A stretch of DNA of 64,000 nt from Gammaproteobacteria bacterium (GTDB lineage Bacteria > Pseudomonadota > Gammaproteobacteria > JAABTG01): contig JAGNLM010000001.1 in the NCBI GenBank assembly GCA_017999615.1, forward strand, positions 186,001 through 250,000, given 5' to 3'. The notes below the pieces were generated by a model, which was not told the origin of the DNA, did no database searches, and saw only the letters and a program-made list of their open reading frames with translations. Position numbers and translations under genes: made by a program. Below, piece by piece: positions 3,992 through 36,159 of this stretch; position 1 is the first letter of the stretch, and each line of letters begins with the position of its first letter.

Positions 3992-5509
3992 GTGGCCCGC
4001 GCCAATTCCCGAGACGCCGCACCCTGCGACACCCTGGCCGCCGTCGACCTGGGGTCCAACAGCTTCCACATGGTCGTCGCGCAGGTCTGCGACGGCGGGG
4101 CGCTGCAGGTGGTCGACCAGCTCCGCGAGCAACTCCAGCTCGCGGCGGGCCTGGACGACGACCGCCGGCTGTCCCCCGAGTCCCGGGACCGCGCCCTGGC
4201 GTGCCTGGAGCGCTTCGGGGAGCGGCTGGGCGGCCTGCGCAGGGGCAAGGTCCGGGCGGTGGGGACCAACACGCTGCGCACCATGCGCGGGAGCGCGGAG
4301 TTCCTCGTCGCGGCCGAGCGGGCGCTGGGCCACCCGATCGAGGTCATCGCCGGGCACGAGGAGGCCCGCCTCATCTATCTCGGCGTTGCCCACACCCTGG
4401 CGGACGACGGGGGGCGGCGGCTGGTCGTGGACATCGGGGGCGGGAGCACCGAGCTCATCATCGGGCAGCGCTTCGAGCCGCGTCACCAGGAGAGCCTCTA
4501 CCTCGGGTGTGTCACCGCGTCGCGCGCGCACTTCCCGGGCGGGGTTCTCAGCGAGGGGGCGTTCCAGCGCGCCCAGATCGCGGCCCGGCTGGAGCTGGAG
4601 TCGGTCGAGCGACACTTCCGGCGCGTGGGGTGGGACGACTGCATCGGCTCGTCGGGGACGGTCAAGGCCGTGCGCTCCGTGCTGGTCGCGAACGGCTGGA
4701 GCGCGGGCACGATCACCCGCAAGGGCCTCGAGAGGGTCCGCCGCGCGCTGGTTCGGGCCGGAAACGTCGAGGCCCTGGCGATGGACGGGCTCTCCCGGGA
4801 GAGGACGGGGATCCTGCCCGGAGGCCTGGCGATCCTGACCGCGGTCTTCGACTCGCTCGGGGTCCGCGAGATGAAGGTGTCGGACGGGGCCCTGCGCGAG
4901 GGGCTCCTCTACGACCTGCTCGGGCGGATCGGGCACGAGGACGTTCGGGAGCGCACCATCGCCGCCGTGGCCCGCCGTTACCAGGTCTCCCAGCGCTTCG
5001 CCGAGCGCGTGGCGCAGACCGCGGAGGCCTGCCGGGCCCAGGTCGAGGCGGTCTGGGACCTGGCGGGGGAGGAGCAGGGCAAGATGCTGCAGTGGGCGGC
5101 CCGGTTGCACGAGGTCGGGTTGGCGGTCTCCCACCAGGGTTACCACAAGCACGGGGCCTACCTGTTGCGCTACTCGGACCTGCCGGGTTTTTCCCGAGAG
5201 GACCAGACGGTGTTGAGCCTCCTCATCCGGGGCCAGCGCCGGCGCTTTCCGAGGGAGGAGCTGGCGGAGTTGCCCGAGGCGGCGGTGAAGCCCGCCACCC
5301 GGATGTGCGTGCTGCTGCGCCTGGCGGTCCTGCTCAACCACGGACGCAGCCCGGAGCCGCTCCCCGCCTTCCGGTTGGCGGCGGGGGACGACTCCCTGGA
5401 GCTGGTGTTTCCGGACGGCTGGCTCGACCGGCACCCGCTCACCCGCGCAAACCTGGAGCAGGAGGCGGAGTCCCTGAAGGCGGAGCGGCTGCGGCTGACC
5501 TTCGGGTAG
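3992..5509 (+). CDS. ppx: Exopolyphosphatase / guanosine pentaphosphate phosphatase (Ppx/GppA)
   Basis: Removes terminal phosphate from long polyphosphate chains and/or converts pppGpp to ppGpp. 505 residues from GTG 3992, preceded by GAGG. N-terminal ASKHA-fold motifs are AAVDLGSNSFHMVVA and the second phosphate loop VVDIGGGSTELI; the GSSGTVKAVRSVL segment follows. The C-terminal HD-like domain includes LHEVGLAVSHQGYHKHGAYLL. Length fits Ppx (513) and GppA (494), and I cannot separate the two by eye. It is convergent with hemB, only 12 bases away, and a short GGCGG/CCGCC inverted repeat (3948-3960) lies between ntrC and this gene. Confidence 0.9.
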   Translation: MARANSRDAAPCDTLAAVDLGSNSFHMVVAQVCDGGALQVVDQLREQLQLAAGLDDDRRLSPESRDRALACLERFGERLGGLRRGKVRAVGTNTLRTMRGSAEFLVAAERALGHPIEVIAGHEEARLIYLGVAHTLADDGGRRLVVDIGGGSTELIIGQRFEPRHQESLYLGCVTASRAHFPGGVLSEGAFQRAQIAARLELESVERHFRRVGWDDCIGSSGTVKAVRSVLVANGWSAGTITRKGLERVRRALVRAGNVEALAMDGLSRERTGILPGGLAILTAVFDSLGVREMKVSDGALREGLLYDLLGRIGHEDVRERTIAAVARRYQVSQRFAERVAQTAEACRAQVEAVWDLAGEEQGKMLQWAARLHEVGLAVSHQGYHKHGAYLLRYSDLPGFSREDQTVLSLLIRGQRRRFPREELAELPEAAVKPATRMCVLLRLAVLLNHGRSPEPLPAFRLAAGDDSLELVFPDGWLDRHPLTRANLEQEAESLKAERLRLTFG

Positions 5510-5521
5510 GGCCGGCTCGAC

Positions 5522-7227
<1,706 letters not shown>

Positions 7228-7249
7228 GCGCGCGTCACCGCTCGCTTGC

Positions 7250-7278
7250 CCGTGGGGCGAGGCTTGCCCGCCCCACGG
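7250..7278 (-). terminator. 10-bp perfect hairpin between the DUF4412-like gene and the ParA gene
   Basis: Bases 7250-7259 and 7269-7278 are perfect inverted copies with a 9-base loop. The hairpin lies in the 63-base gap between two minus-strand genes. No T-tract follows in the direction of transcription, so it may attenuate, stabilise mRNA or aid rho-dependent termination. Confidence 0.35.
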
Positions 7279-7290
7279 ACGGACTGTCCT

Positions 7291-7938
7291 TCACTTTACC
7301 GCGTGGGGCGCGGCCGGCGCTCCGGCCTGACCCTGGGGCGGGCGCTGGGGCAGCTCGACCTTCTTGTAGTCGGCGGGCACGACGAAGAGGTCCGCCGGCT
7401 GCGGGCCCTCCGTCACGTCACGCAGCTCGGTCTGCGCGCCGCCCTGGAACTCCGCCCGGATCGGTGTGCGCAGGCGCTGGTCCACCCACATCACCGAGCG
7501 GAAGGAGTCCTTGCCCTGGACCGCGATCACCTCCCATTTGTCGGTGGCCCGGCTGTTCACGCTCTCGCTGCCGAGCTTGGTGCACTTCAGCCCGCTGTCC
7601 TTCTGCTGACAGGGGTGCCCGGCCTCGTCCGGCATGGGGGGCCGGCCCGCCGCGGCGGTTCCCGCCCCGGGTCCCTTCATCTCGACGTACTCCTTGCGGT
7701 CGGGGTTCAGGATCCACGCCGTGTTCTTTTCCCCGTCGGTGATCGTGATGCGGGTCTGCCCCTCCTGCACGGCCTCCTGGCGCATCTTGTTCTTCGACAC
7801 GTAGAGCTTGCCGGTCACCGTGCCCTTCTGCGGCATGGTCTGTACCGCCGTGGCCGAGAAGTCCACGTCCGAAGGCGCCGCCCACACTCCGGTCAACGGA
7901 AGTGCCAGGGCCGCGAGTGCGAGAAACCTTGTACGCAT
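7291..7938 (-). CDS. Secreted DUF4412-like protein
   Basis: 215 residues from the ATG at 7936-7938, preceded on the minus strand by GGAGAG. A signal peptide (MRTRFLALAALALPLTGVWA) is followed by a beta-rich sequence: DFSATAVQTMPQKGTVTGKL, then YVSKNKMRQE, ITITDGEKNTAWILNPDRKEYVEM, and a cysteine pair in HPCQQKDSGLKCTKLG. The alternating strands resemble DUF4412/LolA-like periplasmic proteins. The C-terminus is proline/alanine-rich. It lies downstream of the RND pump gene on the same strand but is separated by 200 bases containing an A/T-rich patch (8041-8060), so it probably has its own promoter. No catalytic residue is recognisable. Confidence 0.75.
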   Translation of the reverse strand: MRTRFLALAALALPLTGVWAAPSDVDFSATAVQTMPQKGTVTGKLYVSKNKMRQEAVQEGQTRITITDGEKNTAWILNPDRKEYVEMKGPGAGTAAAGRPPMPDEAGHPCQQKDSGLKCTKLGSESVNSRATDKWEVIAVQGKDSFRSVMWVDQRLRTPIRAEFQGGAQTELRDVTEGPQPADLFVVPADYKKVELPQRPPQGQAGAPAAPHAVK

Positions 7939-8138: not shown

Positions 8139-11100
8139 TCACTCGCCCCCGTTCTCAGGGGGCTCTTCCTCCAGCCCGGGCACCTTCTCTTTGAGCCGGA
8201 TCCCGCGCCGCTTGCGGGACCCTGCCAACTTCGCCTCCGGCTGGGCCGACCTGGGCTCCGGCGCCTCTGTCTTTGGCCCCGGCGCGGGCGGCCTCCGCTC
8301 GGGCGCAGCCGGCCTCGGCTCCAGGCTGGCTGGTTTCGGCGCGGGGGCAGGCGGCGGGGTGGGGGAGGGGCGGGGCGCGCGGGGTGCCGGCGCGGAACGA
8401 GGGGCGCGCGCAGCGGGTGCGGGCTCAGCGGGTCCCGGCTGTTGGGGGACCGCAACCGCCGAGGCCAGCCGGGAGCGCCAGTGCCGGATCGTGTGCCGGG
8501 ACAGGACCGCAACCCGCCGCACCGCGCGTCCCGCCGCCCTGCGCAAGGGGACCGAGACCTGCTCCCAGAGGGCCAAGGCCTGCTCCCGGACCTCCGTGGT
8601 GATGACCCCCAACCGGCGGCGCGCTTTCACCAGGGCGGGATAGGCGGAGAGGCGCCCCGGGGCGGGGGGCCGCCTGGCCGGGGATTGTCCCCCCGTGCCG
8701 CTGAAGGCGAGCCGCTTGAGGGCGTCCTCGGCGTTCACGCAGCCGATGGGGATGACCACCAGGGTGAGCAGGGTCGAGACGATGACGCCGAAGGCGAGGG
8801 AGACCGCCATGCCCTTGAAGATGGAGTCGCCCAGGATGACGCTCGCCCCGGCCACGAGCGCGAGGGCGGTGATGAGGATGGGGCGCGTGCGGGTTTTGCA
8901 GGCCTGGATCACCGCCTCCTCGACCGACAACCCCCGGCGCACGGCGTGGATGGAGAAATCGACCAGCAGGATGGAGTTGCGCACGATGATGCCGGCGAGC
9001 GCGATCCAGCCGATCATCGAGGTAGCGGTGAACTCCGCGTCGAAGAGCCAGTGGCCGGGGATGATCCCGAGGAGGGTCAGGGGAATGGGGGCCATGATCA
9101 GGGCGGGTATCCGGAAGTCGCCGAATTCCCAGACCACCAGGACGTAGATGAGCAGGAGCGCCGCGGCGAAGGCCACCCCGAGGTCCCGGAAGGTCTCGTA
9201 GGTGACGGTCCACTCGCCGGTCCACTCGAAGCCCGAGCGGCCGTCGCTCTCGGGCGGGCCGAAGAAGCTGCCGCTCACCGGGTGACCGTCCGGAGACCGG
9301 TAGCCCTGGAGCAGGTCCTCCACCTGGAGCATGCCGTAGATGGGCGCGGCCAGCCGGCCCACGCTCTCTGCGGTCACGTACTCCACGGACCGCAGGTCCT
9401 TGTGGTAGATGGTGAAATCCTCGGGCACCTGCACGAAGCGGCCGAGCTCGGCGAGCGGCACGGTGCCGCCGGTGGCCGTCGGGATGGGGAGGTCGCTCAA
9501 GCGGTTGACCTGGGAGCGCTGGGCGAGCGGGACCTGGATGACGATGTGGGTCGGCTCCAGGGCGCGGGCGCCCTTGATGTCCCCCAGCTTGTAGTTGCCC
9601 ATGGCCATCGCCAGGTTGCGGTTGATGGTGTCGACCGAGATCCCCCGGCGCACCGCCTTCTCGGTCTCCACCTCGAACCGCCAGTAGGCGTAGGGGGCCT
9701 CCAGTTGGTTGTCCACGTCCCCGAGGTTCGGGGCCCGCTCGAAGATCTCGGTGAGGTCGGCCGCGACCCGGCGCCGGGTTGCGGGGTCCGGCCCGTGGAC
9801 CTCGGCGACGACGGTCTGCAGGACCGGCGGGCCGGGGGGCATCTCCACGACGGCGATCCGGGCGCCGGCCGCGCGCGCGGGCTCCGTGAGCCACTCGCGC
9901 GCCGCGACCGCCAGGTCGTGGCTGGTCAGGTGGCGCTGGCTCTTGTGGGTGACCTGGACATGGATCTCCGCCTGCCAGGGTTTGTCCCGCAGGTAGTAGT
10001 GGCGAACCATGCCGTTGAAATCGAAGGGCCGGGCGGTGCCCACGTAGGTCTGGAGCGCGGTGACCTCGGGCACCCGCTGGCGCACGATCTCCGCCAGGCG
10101 CCGGGTGAGGTTGGCGGTGACGGGGAGCGCGGTCCCCTCGGGCATGTTGATGACGACGCTGAGCTCGGACTTGTTGTCGAGCGGCAGCATCTTCACCGTC
10201 ACCCACTTCGTGTAGAAGAACGAGAGGGCCACCAGCAGGCTGCCCCAGAGGACCGCCTGGAAGGCGATGCGCTTGCGGCGGTCGTGGATGAGCGGCACCA
10301 GGATGTCCCGGAACAGCTTGTCCAGCCGCTCGCTCGTCTCGTGCTCGCGCCTCTCCGCCGTGCGCAGGTACGCCATGGGGGGCTTCAGGTGCATCGCCCA
10401 CCACGGGGTGAACACGAACGCCGCCAGGAGCGAGAAGACCATGGCCGCGGAGCCGAGGGCCGGGATCGGCTCCATGTAGGGCCCCATCATGCCGGTCACG
10501 AAGCCCATGGGGAGCAGGGCGGCGACGACCGTGAAGGTCGCGAGGATGGTGGGGTTACCCACCTCGCGCACCGCGTCGACGGCGGTCTCCGCCGAGGTGT
10601 TTCCCTCCTCCAGCCAGCGCCGGTAGACGTTCTCCACCACCACGATGGCGTCGTCCACCAGGATGCCGATGGAGAAGATGAGGGCGAACAGGCTGACGCG
10701 GTCGATCGTGTAGCCCATGAGGAAGGCCGCGAACACCGTGAACAGGATGACGACGGGGATGACCAGGAGCACGACCAGCGCGGGGCGCAGCGCGCGGAAG
10801 GCAAGCAGGACCAGGATGAAGACGAAGCCGGTGGCCTTGAAGAGCTTCGCGATCAGCTCGTTCACCTTGTCGTTCGCGCTCTCCCCGTAGTTGCGGGTGA
10901 GGGACACCTGGACGTTGTCCGGGATGAGCACTCCCTTCAGGGCCTCGAGCCGGCCGAGGATGGCGTGCGCGACCTCGACCCCGTTGCTGCCCTCCTTCTT
11001 GGCGAGCGCCACGGTCACCGCGGGGGCCCCGGCCGCCTCGACCGGGTGCTTGCCTGCAGGTGCGCTGTAGTACTCGACGATCTGGCTCGTGTCCTCCGGC

Positions 11101-11972
11101 TCCTGGCTCACCCGCGCGATGTCGCGCACGTACACGGGCACGTCGTTGCGGCTGCCCACCACGAGCCGGGCGATGTCCTCCGGTGTGCGCAGGAACGCCC
11201 CGGTGACGACGCTGAAGTGAGTGTCCGACGACTCGAGGTTGCCGGCCCGCTGCTCGGAGTTGGCGGTCCGGATGGTGTTCGCGACCTGGTCCAGGCTGAT
11301 CCCGTATCCCGAGAGGCGCTCGGGGAAGACCTCCACCCGCACCTGGTCTGCGCGCCCGCCCACGAGGAACCCCTGTCCGGTATTGGGCACTTCCTTCAAT
11401 GCCTGGAGCACGTCGAGCCCGAGCTTGCGCAGGGCGCCGTCGTCCACCGTGCGCGACCAGAGGGTGAGCGTCACCACCGGCACGTCGTCGGCGCCCTTCG
11501 GCTTCACGAGCGGCGGCAGTACGCCCGACGGGACCTTGTCCATGTTGGACTGGATCTTGTCGTGGACCTTGACGATCGACGCCCCGAGGTCCTCGCCCAC
11601 GAAGAACTGCGCCGTCACCATCCCCTGCCCGCGCTGGGTCGCAGAATAGATGTGCTCGATGCCGGGGATCTCGCTCATCATTCGCTCGAGGGGCTCGATG
11701 GCGAGGGCGGCGACCTGGGCGGCGGAGGCGCCCGGGTACTGCACGAAGACGTCCACCAGGGGCACCGAGATCTGGGGGTCCTCCTGGCGCGGGGTCACGG
11801 CGAGCCCGAGCAGCCCCATGAACAGCATGACCATGAACAGGAGGGGCGAGAGCGGGGAGTTGATGAAGGCCTGCGTCAGCCGCCCCGCGATACCGAGGCT
11901 CTCGCCGGGCAGGGGGGGCGCGGAACGGGCCGGGCGGCCTGGGGTACGGGGGGCGTCAGGATGCTCAGCCAT
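8139..11972 (-). CDS. RND-family inner-membrane efflux transporter with long proline-rich C-terminal tail
   Basis: Proton-driven efflux pump (AcrB superfamily), 1277 residues against the usual ~1030-1050. TM1 is near residue 45, followed by the porter domain. The TM4 proton-relay motif is GILVDDAIVVVENVYRRW, with the Asp-Asp pair of the drug/organic (HAE) type, not the metal-pump type. The second half repeats the fold (AALLLIYVLVVWEFGDFR, GWIALAGIIVRNSILLVDFS) and the last TM ends at VVIPIGCVNAEDALKRL. A further ~187 residues follow: a basic, helix-prone segment, then a Pro/Ala-rich stretch and an acidic end (VPGLEEEPPENGGE). The adaptor gene lies upstream on the same strand; no TolC-type channel is nearby. 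Substrate unknown. Confidence 0.93.
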   Translation of the reverse strand: MAEHPDAPRTPGRPARSAPPLPGESLGIAGRLTQAFINSPLSPLLFMVMLFMGLLGLAVTPRQEDPQISVPLVDVFVQYPGASAAQVAALAIEPLERMMSEIPGIEHIYSATQRGQGMVTAQFFVGEDLGASIVKVHDKIQSNMDKVPSGVLPPLVKPKGADDVPVVTLTLWSRTVDDGALRKLGLDVLQALKEVPNTGQGFLVGGRADQVRVEVFPERLSGYGISLDQVANTIRTANSEQRAGNLESSDTHFSVVTGAFLRTPEDIARLVVGSRNDVPVYVRDIARVSQEPEDTSQIVEYYSAPAGKHPVEAAGAPAVTVALAKKEGSNGVEVAHAILGRLEALKGVLIPDNVQVSLTRNYGESANDKVNELIAKLFKATGFVFILVLLAFRALRPALVVLLVIPVVILFTVFAAFLMGYTIDRVSLFALIFSIGILVDDAIVVVENVYRRWLEEGNTSAETAVDAVREVGNPTILATFTVVAALLPMGFVTGMMGPYMEPIPALGSAAMVFSLLAAFVFTPWWAMHLKPPMAYLRTAERREHETSERLDKLFRDILVPLIHDRRKRIAFQAVLWGSLLVALSFFYTKWVTVKMLPLDNKSELSVVINMPEGTALPVTANLTRRLAEIVRQRVPEVTALQTYVGTARPFDFNGMVRHYYLRDKPWQAEIHVQVTHKSQRHLTSHDLAVAAREWLTEPARAAGARIAVVEMPPGPPVLQTVVAEVHGPDPATRRRVAADLTEIFERAPNLGDVDNQLEAPYAYWRFEVETEKAVRRGISVDTINRNLAMAMGNYKLGDIKGARALEPTHIVIQVPLAQRSQVNRLSDLPIPTATGGTVPLAELGRFVQVPEDFTIYHKDLRSVEYVTAESVGRLAAPIYGMLQVEDLLQGYRSPDGHPVSGSFFGPPESDGRSGFEWTGEWTVTYETFRDLGVAFAAALLLIYVLVVWEFGDFRIPALIMAPIPLTLLGIIPGHWLFDAEFTATSMIGWIALAGIIVRNSILLVDFSIHAVRRGLSVEEAVIQACKTRTRPILITALALVAGASVILGDSIFKGMAVSLAFGVIVSTLLTLVVIPIGCVNAEDALKRLAFSGTGGQSPARRPPAPGRLSAYPALVKARRRLGVITTEVREQALALWEQVSVPLRRAAGRAVRRVAVLSRHTIRHWRSRLASAVAVPQQPGPAEPAPAARAPRSAPAPRAPRPSPTPPPAPAPKPASLEPRPAAPERRPPAPGPKTEAPEPRSAQPEAKLAGSRKRRGIRLKEKVPGLEEEPPENGGE

Positions 11973-32708: not shown

Positions 32709-33131
32709 ATGGCCATGACCATCCGGGTCGAGATCGTCAGCGCCGAGTCCGAAGTCTTCTCGGGCGTCGCGGAGATGGTCATCGCCCCTGCGCTGATGGG
32801 CGACGTGGGCATCCTGCCGCGGCACGCCCAGTTCCTCTCCGAGCTCAAGCCCGGCGAGGTGCGGGTCAAGCTGCCCGGAGGCGAGGAGGAGTCCTTCTAC
32901 GTCTCCGGGGGGTTCCTCGAGGTGCAGCCCCATCTCGTGACCGTGCTCTCCGACACGGGGCTCCGGGCCAAGGATCTGGACGAGGCCAAGGCCCTGGAAG
33001 CCAAGGCCACCGCCGAGCGCACCCTGAAGGACCGGACGGCCAAGATCGACTATGCGAAGGCGCAGGCCGAGCTGGCCGAGGCCATCGCCCAGCTCGCGGC
33101 CATCCGGCGCCTGCGCAAGAAGGGGCGTTAG
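32709..33131 (+). CDS. atpC: ATP synthase F1 subunit epsilon
   Basis: Regulatory rotor subunit. 140 residues: an N-terminal beta-sandwich ([40 protein letters not shown]) and a C-terminal helical hairpin ([20 protein letters not shown]). Last gene of the nine-gene operon. Confidence 0.96.
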
Positions 33132-33173: not shown

Positions 33174-34202
33174 ATGAGCGACCTCTCTGTCGTCGTCTTG
33201 GCGGCCGGCCAGGGCAAGCGGATGTACTCCGACCTGCCGAAGGTCCTGCACCCCCTGGGGGGCAGGCCGCTCCTCTCCCACGTCGTCGCCACCGCGCTGG
33301 AGCTCGACCCCGCGCGGGTCGTGGTCGTCTACGGGCACGGCGGGCGGGTGGTGCCCGAGCGCCTGGCCCGTATGCCGGTGCAGTGGGTGGAGCAGGCCCG
33401 GCAGCTCGGCACGGGCCACGCCGTCGCCCAGGCCATGCCGGTGGTGGCGGACGCCGACACGGTGCTGGTCCTCTACGGCGACGTGCCGCTCACCCGCGTC
33501 GAGACCTTGCGCGAGCTGGTCGCGCTCGCCGGGCCCGACGCCCTGGCCCTCGTCACGGTCGACCTCGACGTGCCCACGGGCTATGGACGGGTGATCCGGG
33601 ACGGTGCGGGCCGGGTGTCGCGGATCGTCGAGGAGAAGGACGCCACCCCCGCGGAGCGCGCGGTGCGGGAGGTGAACACCGGGATCCTTGCGGTGCCGGC
33701 CGGGCGCCTGCGGGGCTGGCTCGCGCGGCTGGGCAACGACAACGCCCAGGGCGAGTACTACCTCACCGACGTCATCGGCCAGGCCGTCACCGAGGGACTG
33801 CCCGTCCGTACCGTGCAGCCGGGGGCCCTGGCGGAGGTGCTCGGCGTGAACAACCGCCTGCAGCTCGCCGAGCTGGAGCGTGCCTACCAGCGCCGCCAGG
33901 CCGAGCGCCTGCTGCTCTCCGGGGTGGCCCTCGCCGACCCTGCGCGCCTCGACGTCCGGGGCGAGGTCACGGTGGGGCGCGACGTGTTCCTCGACGTGAA
34001 CGTCGTGCTGGAGGGGCGGGTCGTGCTGGGTGACCGCGTCCGCGTGGGCCCCGGCGCCGTCCTGCGGGACGCCGAGGTGGGGGAGGGCGCCGAGATCGGC
34101 GCCCACTGCGTCGTCGAAGGCGCGTGCGTCGGGCCCGGCAGCTGGCTGGACCCGCTCTCCTGGGTCCGGGCCGGGAAGGGTCGCGGGGCCCACCTCCCGT
34201 AA
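33174..34202 (+). CDS. glmU: GlmU uridylyltransferase, truncated in the acetyltransferase domain
   Basis: Normally bifunctional: acetylates GlcN-1-P, then makes UDP-GlcNAc. Here it has 342 residues against about 456. The N-terminal pyrophosphorylase domain (1 to ~228) is complete: [50 protein letters not shown]. The left-handed beta-helix starts ([20 protein letters not shown]) but stops after about four coils. The part that would hold the acetyl-transfer histidine and acetyl-CoA site is missing. Only 124 bases separate the stop from glmS, and neither other frame encodes the lost part, so this is a deletion or natural short form, not a frameshift. Confidence 0.9.
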
Positions 34203-34326
34203 GGGCAGGGTCGGGGCGCAGGCCCGAGGGGCTTCGCCGCGACGCGCCTTCGGGGGCGCCCGCTCAGGATCAGCCACCGCCCGCCGCTGTACACTCGAGC
34301 CACGACCGGAGTCCCAGGAGCATCCC

Positions 34327-36159
34327 ATGTGCGGCATCGTTGGAGCGGTCGCCGAGCGCGACGTCCTGCCCATCCTCGTCGAAGGCCTGCGCCGTCTGGA
34401 GTACCGCGGCTACGACTCCGCGGGCGTCGCCGTCATCGACGGCGCGGGGGGCCTCGGCCGGGTCCGCGTCTCCGGCAAGGTCGCCGAGCTGGTGCGGTCC
34501 CTGGAGGCGAGCCCCCTGCGCGGCGGGCTCGGCATCGCCCACACGCGCTGGGCCACCCACGGGGTGCCGAGCGAGGCGAACGCGCACCCGCACATCTGCA
34601 ACGACACCGTGGCGGTGGTGCACAACGGGATCATCGAGAACTACGAGGCCCTGAAAGCGCGCCAGCTGGCCCAGGGCTTCCGGTTCACCTCGGAGACGGA
34701 CACCGAGGTGATCGCCCACCAGGTCTTCCTGTATCTCGAGCAGGGTCGGGACCTGCTCGGGGCGGTGCAGGCCGCCGCCCTCGATCTCGAGGGGGCCTAC
34801 GCCATCGGGGTCGTCTCCCGGAAGGAGCCGGGGCGGCTGGTCGCGGCCCGCCGGGGCAGCCCCCTCGTCATCGGGGTGGGGATCGGCGAGCACTTCATCG
34901 CCTCGGACGTCTCGGCCCTGCTCCCGGTCACCCAGCGCTTCATCTTCCTGGAGGACGGAGACGTCGCCGACCTGCGGCGTGCGAGCCTGACGATCTACGG
35001 GGCCGGTGGGGCTCCGGTCCAGCGTGAGGTCAGGGTGAGCGAGCTGACGGCCGACGCCGTCGAGCGCGGCAGGTTCCGCCACTACATGCTGAAGGAGATC
35101 TTCGAGCAGCCCCGGGCGCTGGCCGACACGCTGGAGGGGCGGCTCGCGAACGGGCGGGTCCTGGAGGCGGCCTTCGGCCCCGCGGCCTCGGCGACCTTCG
35201 ATCGGGTGAGGGGGGTGCAGATCGTCGCCTGCGGGACCAGCTACCACGCGGGCCTGGTGGCCCGGTACTGGCTGGAGCAGCTGGCGGGGGTGCGCTGCGA
35301 CGTGGAGGTCGCGAGCGAGTTCCGCTACCGGCGCCACGTGGTGGACCCGGACACCCTCGTGGTGACCATCTCCCAGTCCGGCGAGACGGCGGACACCCTG
35401 GCCGCCCTGCGGGCGACGCGCGAGATGGGGTTCGGCCCCTCGCTCGCGCTCTGCAACGTGCCCGAGAGCTCGCTGGTGCGCGAGTCGTCGCTCGTCCTGA
35501 TGACCCGGGCCGGGCCGGAGATCGGGGTCGCTTCGACCAAGGCGTTCACCACGCAGCTCACGGCCCTGCTGCTGTTGGCCGTCGTGCTGGGCCGGCGCCG
35601 GGGGCTCTCCCCGGAGGCGGAGGCCGACGTGGTGCGCCAGCTGCTCGCGCTCCCCGGCCAGGTGGAGAAGGCGCTGGAGCTCGACCCCATCGTCGCGCGT
35701 CTGGCCGAGCGGTTCGTGGACAAGCACCACGCCCTGTTCCTCGGGCGGGGCTTTCACTACCCGGTGGCGATGGAGGGGGCGCTCAAGCTGAAGGAGGTCT
35801 CCTACATCCACGCCGAGGCCTATCCGGCGGGCGAGCTCAAGCACGGGCCGCTCGCGCTGGTGGATTCCTCCATGCCCGTGATCGCGGTCGCCCCGAACGA
35901 CGCGCTCCTGGAGAAGCTGAAGTCCAACCTCCAGGAGGTGCGGGCGCGCGGCGGCCAGCTGTACGTCTTCGCCGACGCCGAGGCCGGCTTCGTGTCCCGG
36001 GAGGACGTGCACGTCATGGATGTCCCCGCGGTCGGCGAGTGGACGGCGCCCATCGTCTACACGGTGCCCCTGCAGCTCCTCGCCTACCACGTGGCGGTGC
36101 AGAAGGGCACGGACGTGGACCAGCCCCGCAACCTCGCGAAGTCGGTGACGGTCGAGTAG
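34327..36159 (+). CDS. glmS: Glutamine--fructose-6-phosphate aminotransferase (isomerising)
   Basis: Makes glucosamine-6-phosphate, the first amino-sugar precursor. 610 residues from ATG 34327, with AGGAG upstream. Cys2 ([15 protein letters not shown]) is the glutaminase nucleophile. The two SIS domains show [16 protein letters not shown] and [14 protein letters not shown]; the C-terminus [13 protein letters not shown] is the family end. It follows truncated glmU, as in the common glmU-glmS pair. Convergent with hemL, 7 bases away. Confidence 0.98.

Follow-up and report, generated by a model that had tools for sequence, protein, structure and literature searches.

A shortened GlmU and a horizontally acquired candidate glucosamine-1-phosphate acetyltransferase in an Ectothiorhodospiraceae-like bacterium

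GlmU is regarded as an essential bifunctional enzyme and as an antibacterial target. In work dating from 2001 (J Biol Chem 276:3833), Pompeo et al. are said to have dissected the Escherichia coli GlmU by engineering into separate domains. A 331-residue E. coli construct, whose end lies close to the truncation described below, was solved structurally as a UDP-GlcNAc pyrophosphorylase (PDB 1fwy, 1fxj). One of the GlmU steps can also be carried by a separate protein, as GlmR/YvcK is an accessory uridylyltransferase (PMC10128056, PMC13046274); the Listeria GlmR converts GlcNAc-1-P and UTP to UDP-GlcNAc and has no acetyltransferase activity (PMC10128056).

The stretch of DNA analyzed here (the window, 64,000 nucleotides) comes from an Ectothiorhodospiraceae-like bacterium and carries a glmU gene of 342 codons (33174-34202, plus strand), which adjoins atpC upstream (32709-33131, plus strand) and is followed by an intact glmS encoding a 610-aa glucosamine-6-phosphate synthase (34327-36159, plus strand, ATG at 34327). 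A sequence-only reading had described a complete uridylyltransferase domain and a stop at residue 342 that leaves the C-terminal part missing, and alignment to full GlmU proteins and to relatives upheld both points, placing the shortening inside the acetyltransferase domain. Residues 1 to 229 (33174-33860) form the intact uridylyltransferase domain (NTP_transf_3, Pfam PF12804, E 3e-21), which aligned end to end with that of full GlmUs from the same family, to which the window protein is 62-63% identical. Residues 230 to 327 (33861-34154) comprise the linker and the opening coils of the left-handed beta-helix that the protein has kept, recognized by two Hexapep stretches and by alignment to full GlmU, and the remaining bases (34155-34202) encode a divergent short C-terminal tail and the stop, with no acetyltransferase half (about residues 333-452 of GlmU). 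The profile match to NCBIfam TIGR01173 covers positions 2 to 332 of 452, and GlmU chains in the PDB align up to approximately residue 337-343 of 456, so that the domain with the catalytic histidine and the acetyl-CoA site is incomplete. The GlmU catalytic residues (His363, Asn386, Lys392, and Arg440 in E. coli numbering) all fall past the end of the window protein. The window GlmU scores above the TIGR01173 cut-off (382.7 versus 366.85 bits) and below that of NF006986 (414.7 versus 725 bits); since TIGR01173 is an equivalog model, automatic annotation would label the truncated protein bifunctional, a warning against taking the name "bifunctional GlmU" in an annotation at face value.

In the gap of 124 bases between glmU and glmS (34203-34326), nothing is left that could have coded for the rest of the acetyltransferase domain, as had been noted from the reading frames. 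When the C-terminal parts of 13 full GlmUs were searched against the window by tblastn, no remnant was found in any frame, the best match (E 0.07) lying inside the retained part, which rules out a hidden frameshift or a remnant beyond the stop. A second glmU, which would have overturned the earlier proposal, is not present in the source metagenome-assembled genome (MAG; 2.47 Mb, 99% complete). The truncation is confirmed as real, and it is known from one MAG.

We compared the window with its relatives. Three genomes of the same family, from two other genera (G002, G003, and G004), encode full GlmUs (TIGR01173 positions 2-452), and in the loci read the full glmU of these sister genera has ATP synthase genes and/or glmS alongside. 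Among 370 sampled Gammaproteobacteria, 355 have a GlmU at E ≤ 1e-25, and by score it is reduced only in the source MAG (G000), in G419, where it is in two pieces, and in G481. Because the window protein is nested on the GlmU tree inside a clade of full-length enzymes from its own family (support 98/86), the gene is native, and its shortening took place within this lineage. G001, the one further genome of the genus, neither confirms nor contradicts the truncation, since its assembly is without the whole atp-glmU region, the contigs beginning at window position 35069; the absence of glmU there therefore does not count as support. Two of its contigs (C94 and C163, loci L138 and L139) match the window at 99% and 95% identity, and both begin exactly at 35069 within glmS; the double copies with an identical start probably reflect a strain mixture and an assembly break.

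The sequence-only reading had called for a search of the genome for a stand-alone glucosamine-1-phosphate acetyltransferase, and one candidate was found outside the window: P0002, a 417-aa left-handed beta-helix protein on contig C3 of the source MAG (locus L026, 7695-8948, minus strand). We refer to this protein and its relatives as LbH. P0002 matches no Pfam family, and it is matched by the same TIGR01173 model as the window GlmU, at positions 235 to 435 (E 5e-13). Its homology to the GlmU acetyltransferase domain emerged from this match, from hhalign (LbH family against GlmU C-domains: probability 99%, E 5e-18, 197 columns), and from a structure comparison, at an identity of only 20-26%. 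Residues ~134-208 are nearly invariant across 74 relatives, the strongly conserved LbH motif FNFTPDGDKTT is aligned by hhalign opposite the GlmU motif CNYDG...KHxT, and the invariant N170 and K177 align with the NYDG and lysine positions of GlmU. H159 and H168 are both invariant, and the alignment fixes neither as the counterpart of E. coli His363. The predicted structure of P0002 has a mean pLDDT of 87 with GlmU rows included in the input alignment; each of its 32 best matches in the PDB is a GlmU structure, and the isolated C-domain of the E. coli enzyme (3twd) reaches a TM score of 0.80 normalized to target length, a result that is partly circular because of those rows. A first AlphaFold model made without them was poor in the core. 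P0002 is best read as a predicted GlmU-type beta-helix domain with a helical C-terminal extension.

LbH lies in an operon with other genes of amino sugar metabolism. On the same strand of locus L026 it is followed by glmM (6311-7660), a nagB-like gene (5302-6270), and, downstream of nagB, a gene for a conserved 304-aa protein (4391-5305); a 741-aa CofD/GlmR-like protein is encoded divergently from LbH (9061-11286, plus strand). The glmM product passes TIGR01455 (582.7 versus 447.55 bits), and the nagB-like product misses TIGR00502 (132.8 versus 236.9 bits) and passes Pfam PF01182 (44.6 versus 27). The 304-aa protein, which has no Pfam or NCBIfam match, occurs in 27 of 56 LbH loci. Throughout the family glmM comes directly after LbH (72 of 73 loci), and nagB is found in 44 of 58 loci. 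The LbH loci are mainly deltaproteobacterial (Syntrophaceae, Syntrophorhabdus, Desulfobacteraceae, and others) and share this gene order. On the GlmM tree, the enzymes of the two genomes of the genus group with that of another proteobacterial MAG (G005; support 100/99) inside the LbH-linked clade (100/100), and they lie apart from the native enzyme of the sister genera, with which they share 47-48% identity. No GlmM other than the operon-borne one was found in either genome of the genus; as the sister genera have a native one, the native GlmM has been replaced. As far as sequence can tell, the operon was acquired horizontally from a deltaproteobacterial lineage (Syntrophia and relatives). G005 carries the LbH operon together with a full GlmU and looks like an intermediate state, in which the operon has been gained and GlmU is still full.

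We hypothesize that the window GlmU is monofunctional and that LbH is a horizontally acquired, stand-alone GlcN-1-P acetyltransferase that replaces the lost half, and we hold this to be probable. The acquired GlmM would have displaced the native GlmM, and the arrival of LbH would have made the acetyltransferase half of GlmU dispensable, after which it would have been deleted, leaving the GlmU of the genus as a monofunctional N-acetylglucosamine-1-phosphate uridylyltransferase that keeps a few coils after its catalytic domain. In the resulting pathway, GlmS, possibly together with the NagB-like enzyme, would provide GlcN-6-P, the acquired GlmM would convert it to GlcN-1-P, LbH would form GlcNAc-1-P from GlcN-1-P and acetyl-CoA, and the truncated GlmU would turn GlcNAc-1-P into UDP-GlcNAc. 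The truncation, the homology, the gene linkage, the transfer, the loss of the native GlmM, and the co-occurrence described below can be read from the sequences themselves, and from them we infer the acetyltransferase activity of LbH and its replacement of the lost GlmU domain. The suggestion that another enzyme acetylates glucosamine-1-phosphate in this organism is well supported by the homology of LbH, by the position of the only glmM beside it, and by the rarity of full GlmU among LbH carriers of the donor phylum. The accompanying idea of a rewired UDP-GlcNAc pathway stands in part: one bifunctional enzyme has apparently become two proteins, with the chemistry probably unchanged.

The distribution of the two proteins bears on this hypothesis. 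A full GlmU was found in 12 of 50 LbH carriers; in the others, GlmU ends at ~313-358 (19 genomes) or ~236-244 (6 genomes), only a divergent NTase is present (11 genomes), or there is neither GlmU nor NTase (2 genomes). Across 345 genomes of one deltaproteobacterial phylum, with GlmU classes assigned by E-value, 5 of 78 LbH carriers had retained a full GlmU, compared with 157 of the 267 genomes lacking LbH (p 3e-18 by Fisher's test, uncorrected for kinship). Truncated glmU, glmS, LbH, glmM, and nagB occur all together in three loci, and the glmS of the window is 46-48% identical to deltaproteobacterial glmS adjoining a truncated glmU. The truncation label changes probably ~9 times on the GlmU tree, at least 5 of these changes being forced by well supported branches, and by this tree GlmU truncation is a change that evolved repeatedly. 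The coil in which the window GlmU stops (PFxxLRP) is also where several independent deltaproteobacterial truncations fall.

LbH is not the universal partner of short GlmU. In the same phylum, 72 non-carriers have a reduced GlmU, ~46 of the 50 checked being true truncations, and an LbH profile search gave no match in any of 42 LbH-negative genomes with a short GlmU. With so many truncations of this kind, the statistical association counts for less, and LbH is one solution among others; some other acetyltransferase must act in those genomes. None was found among the neighbors of their truncated glmU or of their glmM, which lies within a cdaA-ybbR-glmM cluster. In the Desulfobacterota-type loci L143-L172 (G074-G348), GlmU is truncated at ~309-354 or ~240 residues, and no LbH relative is present. 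The roughly 70 genomes with a reduced GlmU and no LbH, and the 12 of 50 carriers in which LbH stands beside a full GlmU, would fit an alternative in which LbH has another role, for example acetylating a different amino sugar that derives from what GlmM produces, and GlcNAc-1-P comes from an unrelated acetyltransferase. We consider this unlikely, as the homology of LbH is specific to the acetyltransferase domain of GlmU, glmM adjoins LbH almost always, and carriers seldom keep a full GlmU. Two further beta-helix proteins that match the GlmU profile in the source MAG, and whose sequences were read, are judged by those sequences to be a WlbB/FdtA-type fusion and CysE.

It is also possible in principle that glmU is full-length in the organism itself and that the MAG contains a false deletion, given that the region is carried by one MAG only and that the second genome of the genus breaks at window position 35069 in glmS. 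Such an assembly or binning artefact is very improbable, because glmU sits inside a contig of 744 kb, the reading frame ends cleanly with no remnant, the end point matches natural truncations in other LbH-bearing genomes, and the native GlmM has likewise been replaced. Least credible of all is a tolerated loss in which external GlcNAc or GlcNAc-1-P is salvaged and GlcNAc-1-P is not made de novo, for which nothing specific was found and against which the intact glmS beside glmU and the acquired pair of glmM and LbH indicate that the de novo route is active.

If replacement by LbH is correct, an essential acetylation step can move to another protein by way of a horizontally mobile acetyltransferase, and a function could be named for an unannotated family present in hundreds of genomes. 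More tentatively, and with the balance somewhat against it, LbH may be a widespread family of stand-alone GlcN-1-P acetyltransferases that, with the NagB-like, GlmM, and GlmR/CofD-like proteins, makes up a portable and complete alternative UDP-GlcNAc route, rendering GlmU wholly unnecessary in some carriers and leaving it free in others to erode, time and again, to a uridylyltransferase. What is new here would be a natural split of the known GlmU system and a predicted enzyme family; no description of either was found in the open literature, which is weak evidence of novelty, as subscription papers lay mostly outside the search.

Among the known systems, one close counterpart is the bifunctional GlmU (TIGR01173; E. 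coli, PDB 1hv9 and 2oi6), which has the uridylyltransferase domain and first coils in common with the window GlmU and whose other half, missing from the window protein, LbH resembles. It differs in that here the two functions would lie on two genes of two evolutionary sources and in that LbH continues at its C-terminus into a long helical extension. The GlmR system is comparable through the CofD/GlmR-like neighbor of LbH. In the source MAG and several relatives this gene, with its GGGTGLS...DDGG signature, is oriented divergently from LbH, and it is conserved next to LbH in ~9 of 58 loci; the product in the source MAG misses TIGR01826 (118.5 versus 196 bits) and passes Pfam PF01933 (CofD). This neighbor is possibly a second uridylyltransferase or a regulator, and one may speculate that it could supply the last step in carriers without GlmU. 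GlmR, however, supplies the uridylyl step and not the acetyl step that we assign to LbH. In the engineered dissection of the E. coli GlmU, the uridylyltransferase half likewise functions on its own and ends near the same residue as the window GlmU, but the split described here is natural, and its putative acetyltransferase is a diverged homologue rather than the same gene cut in two.
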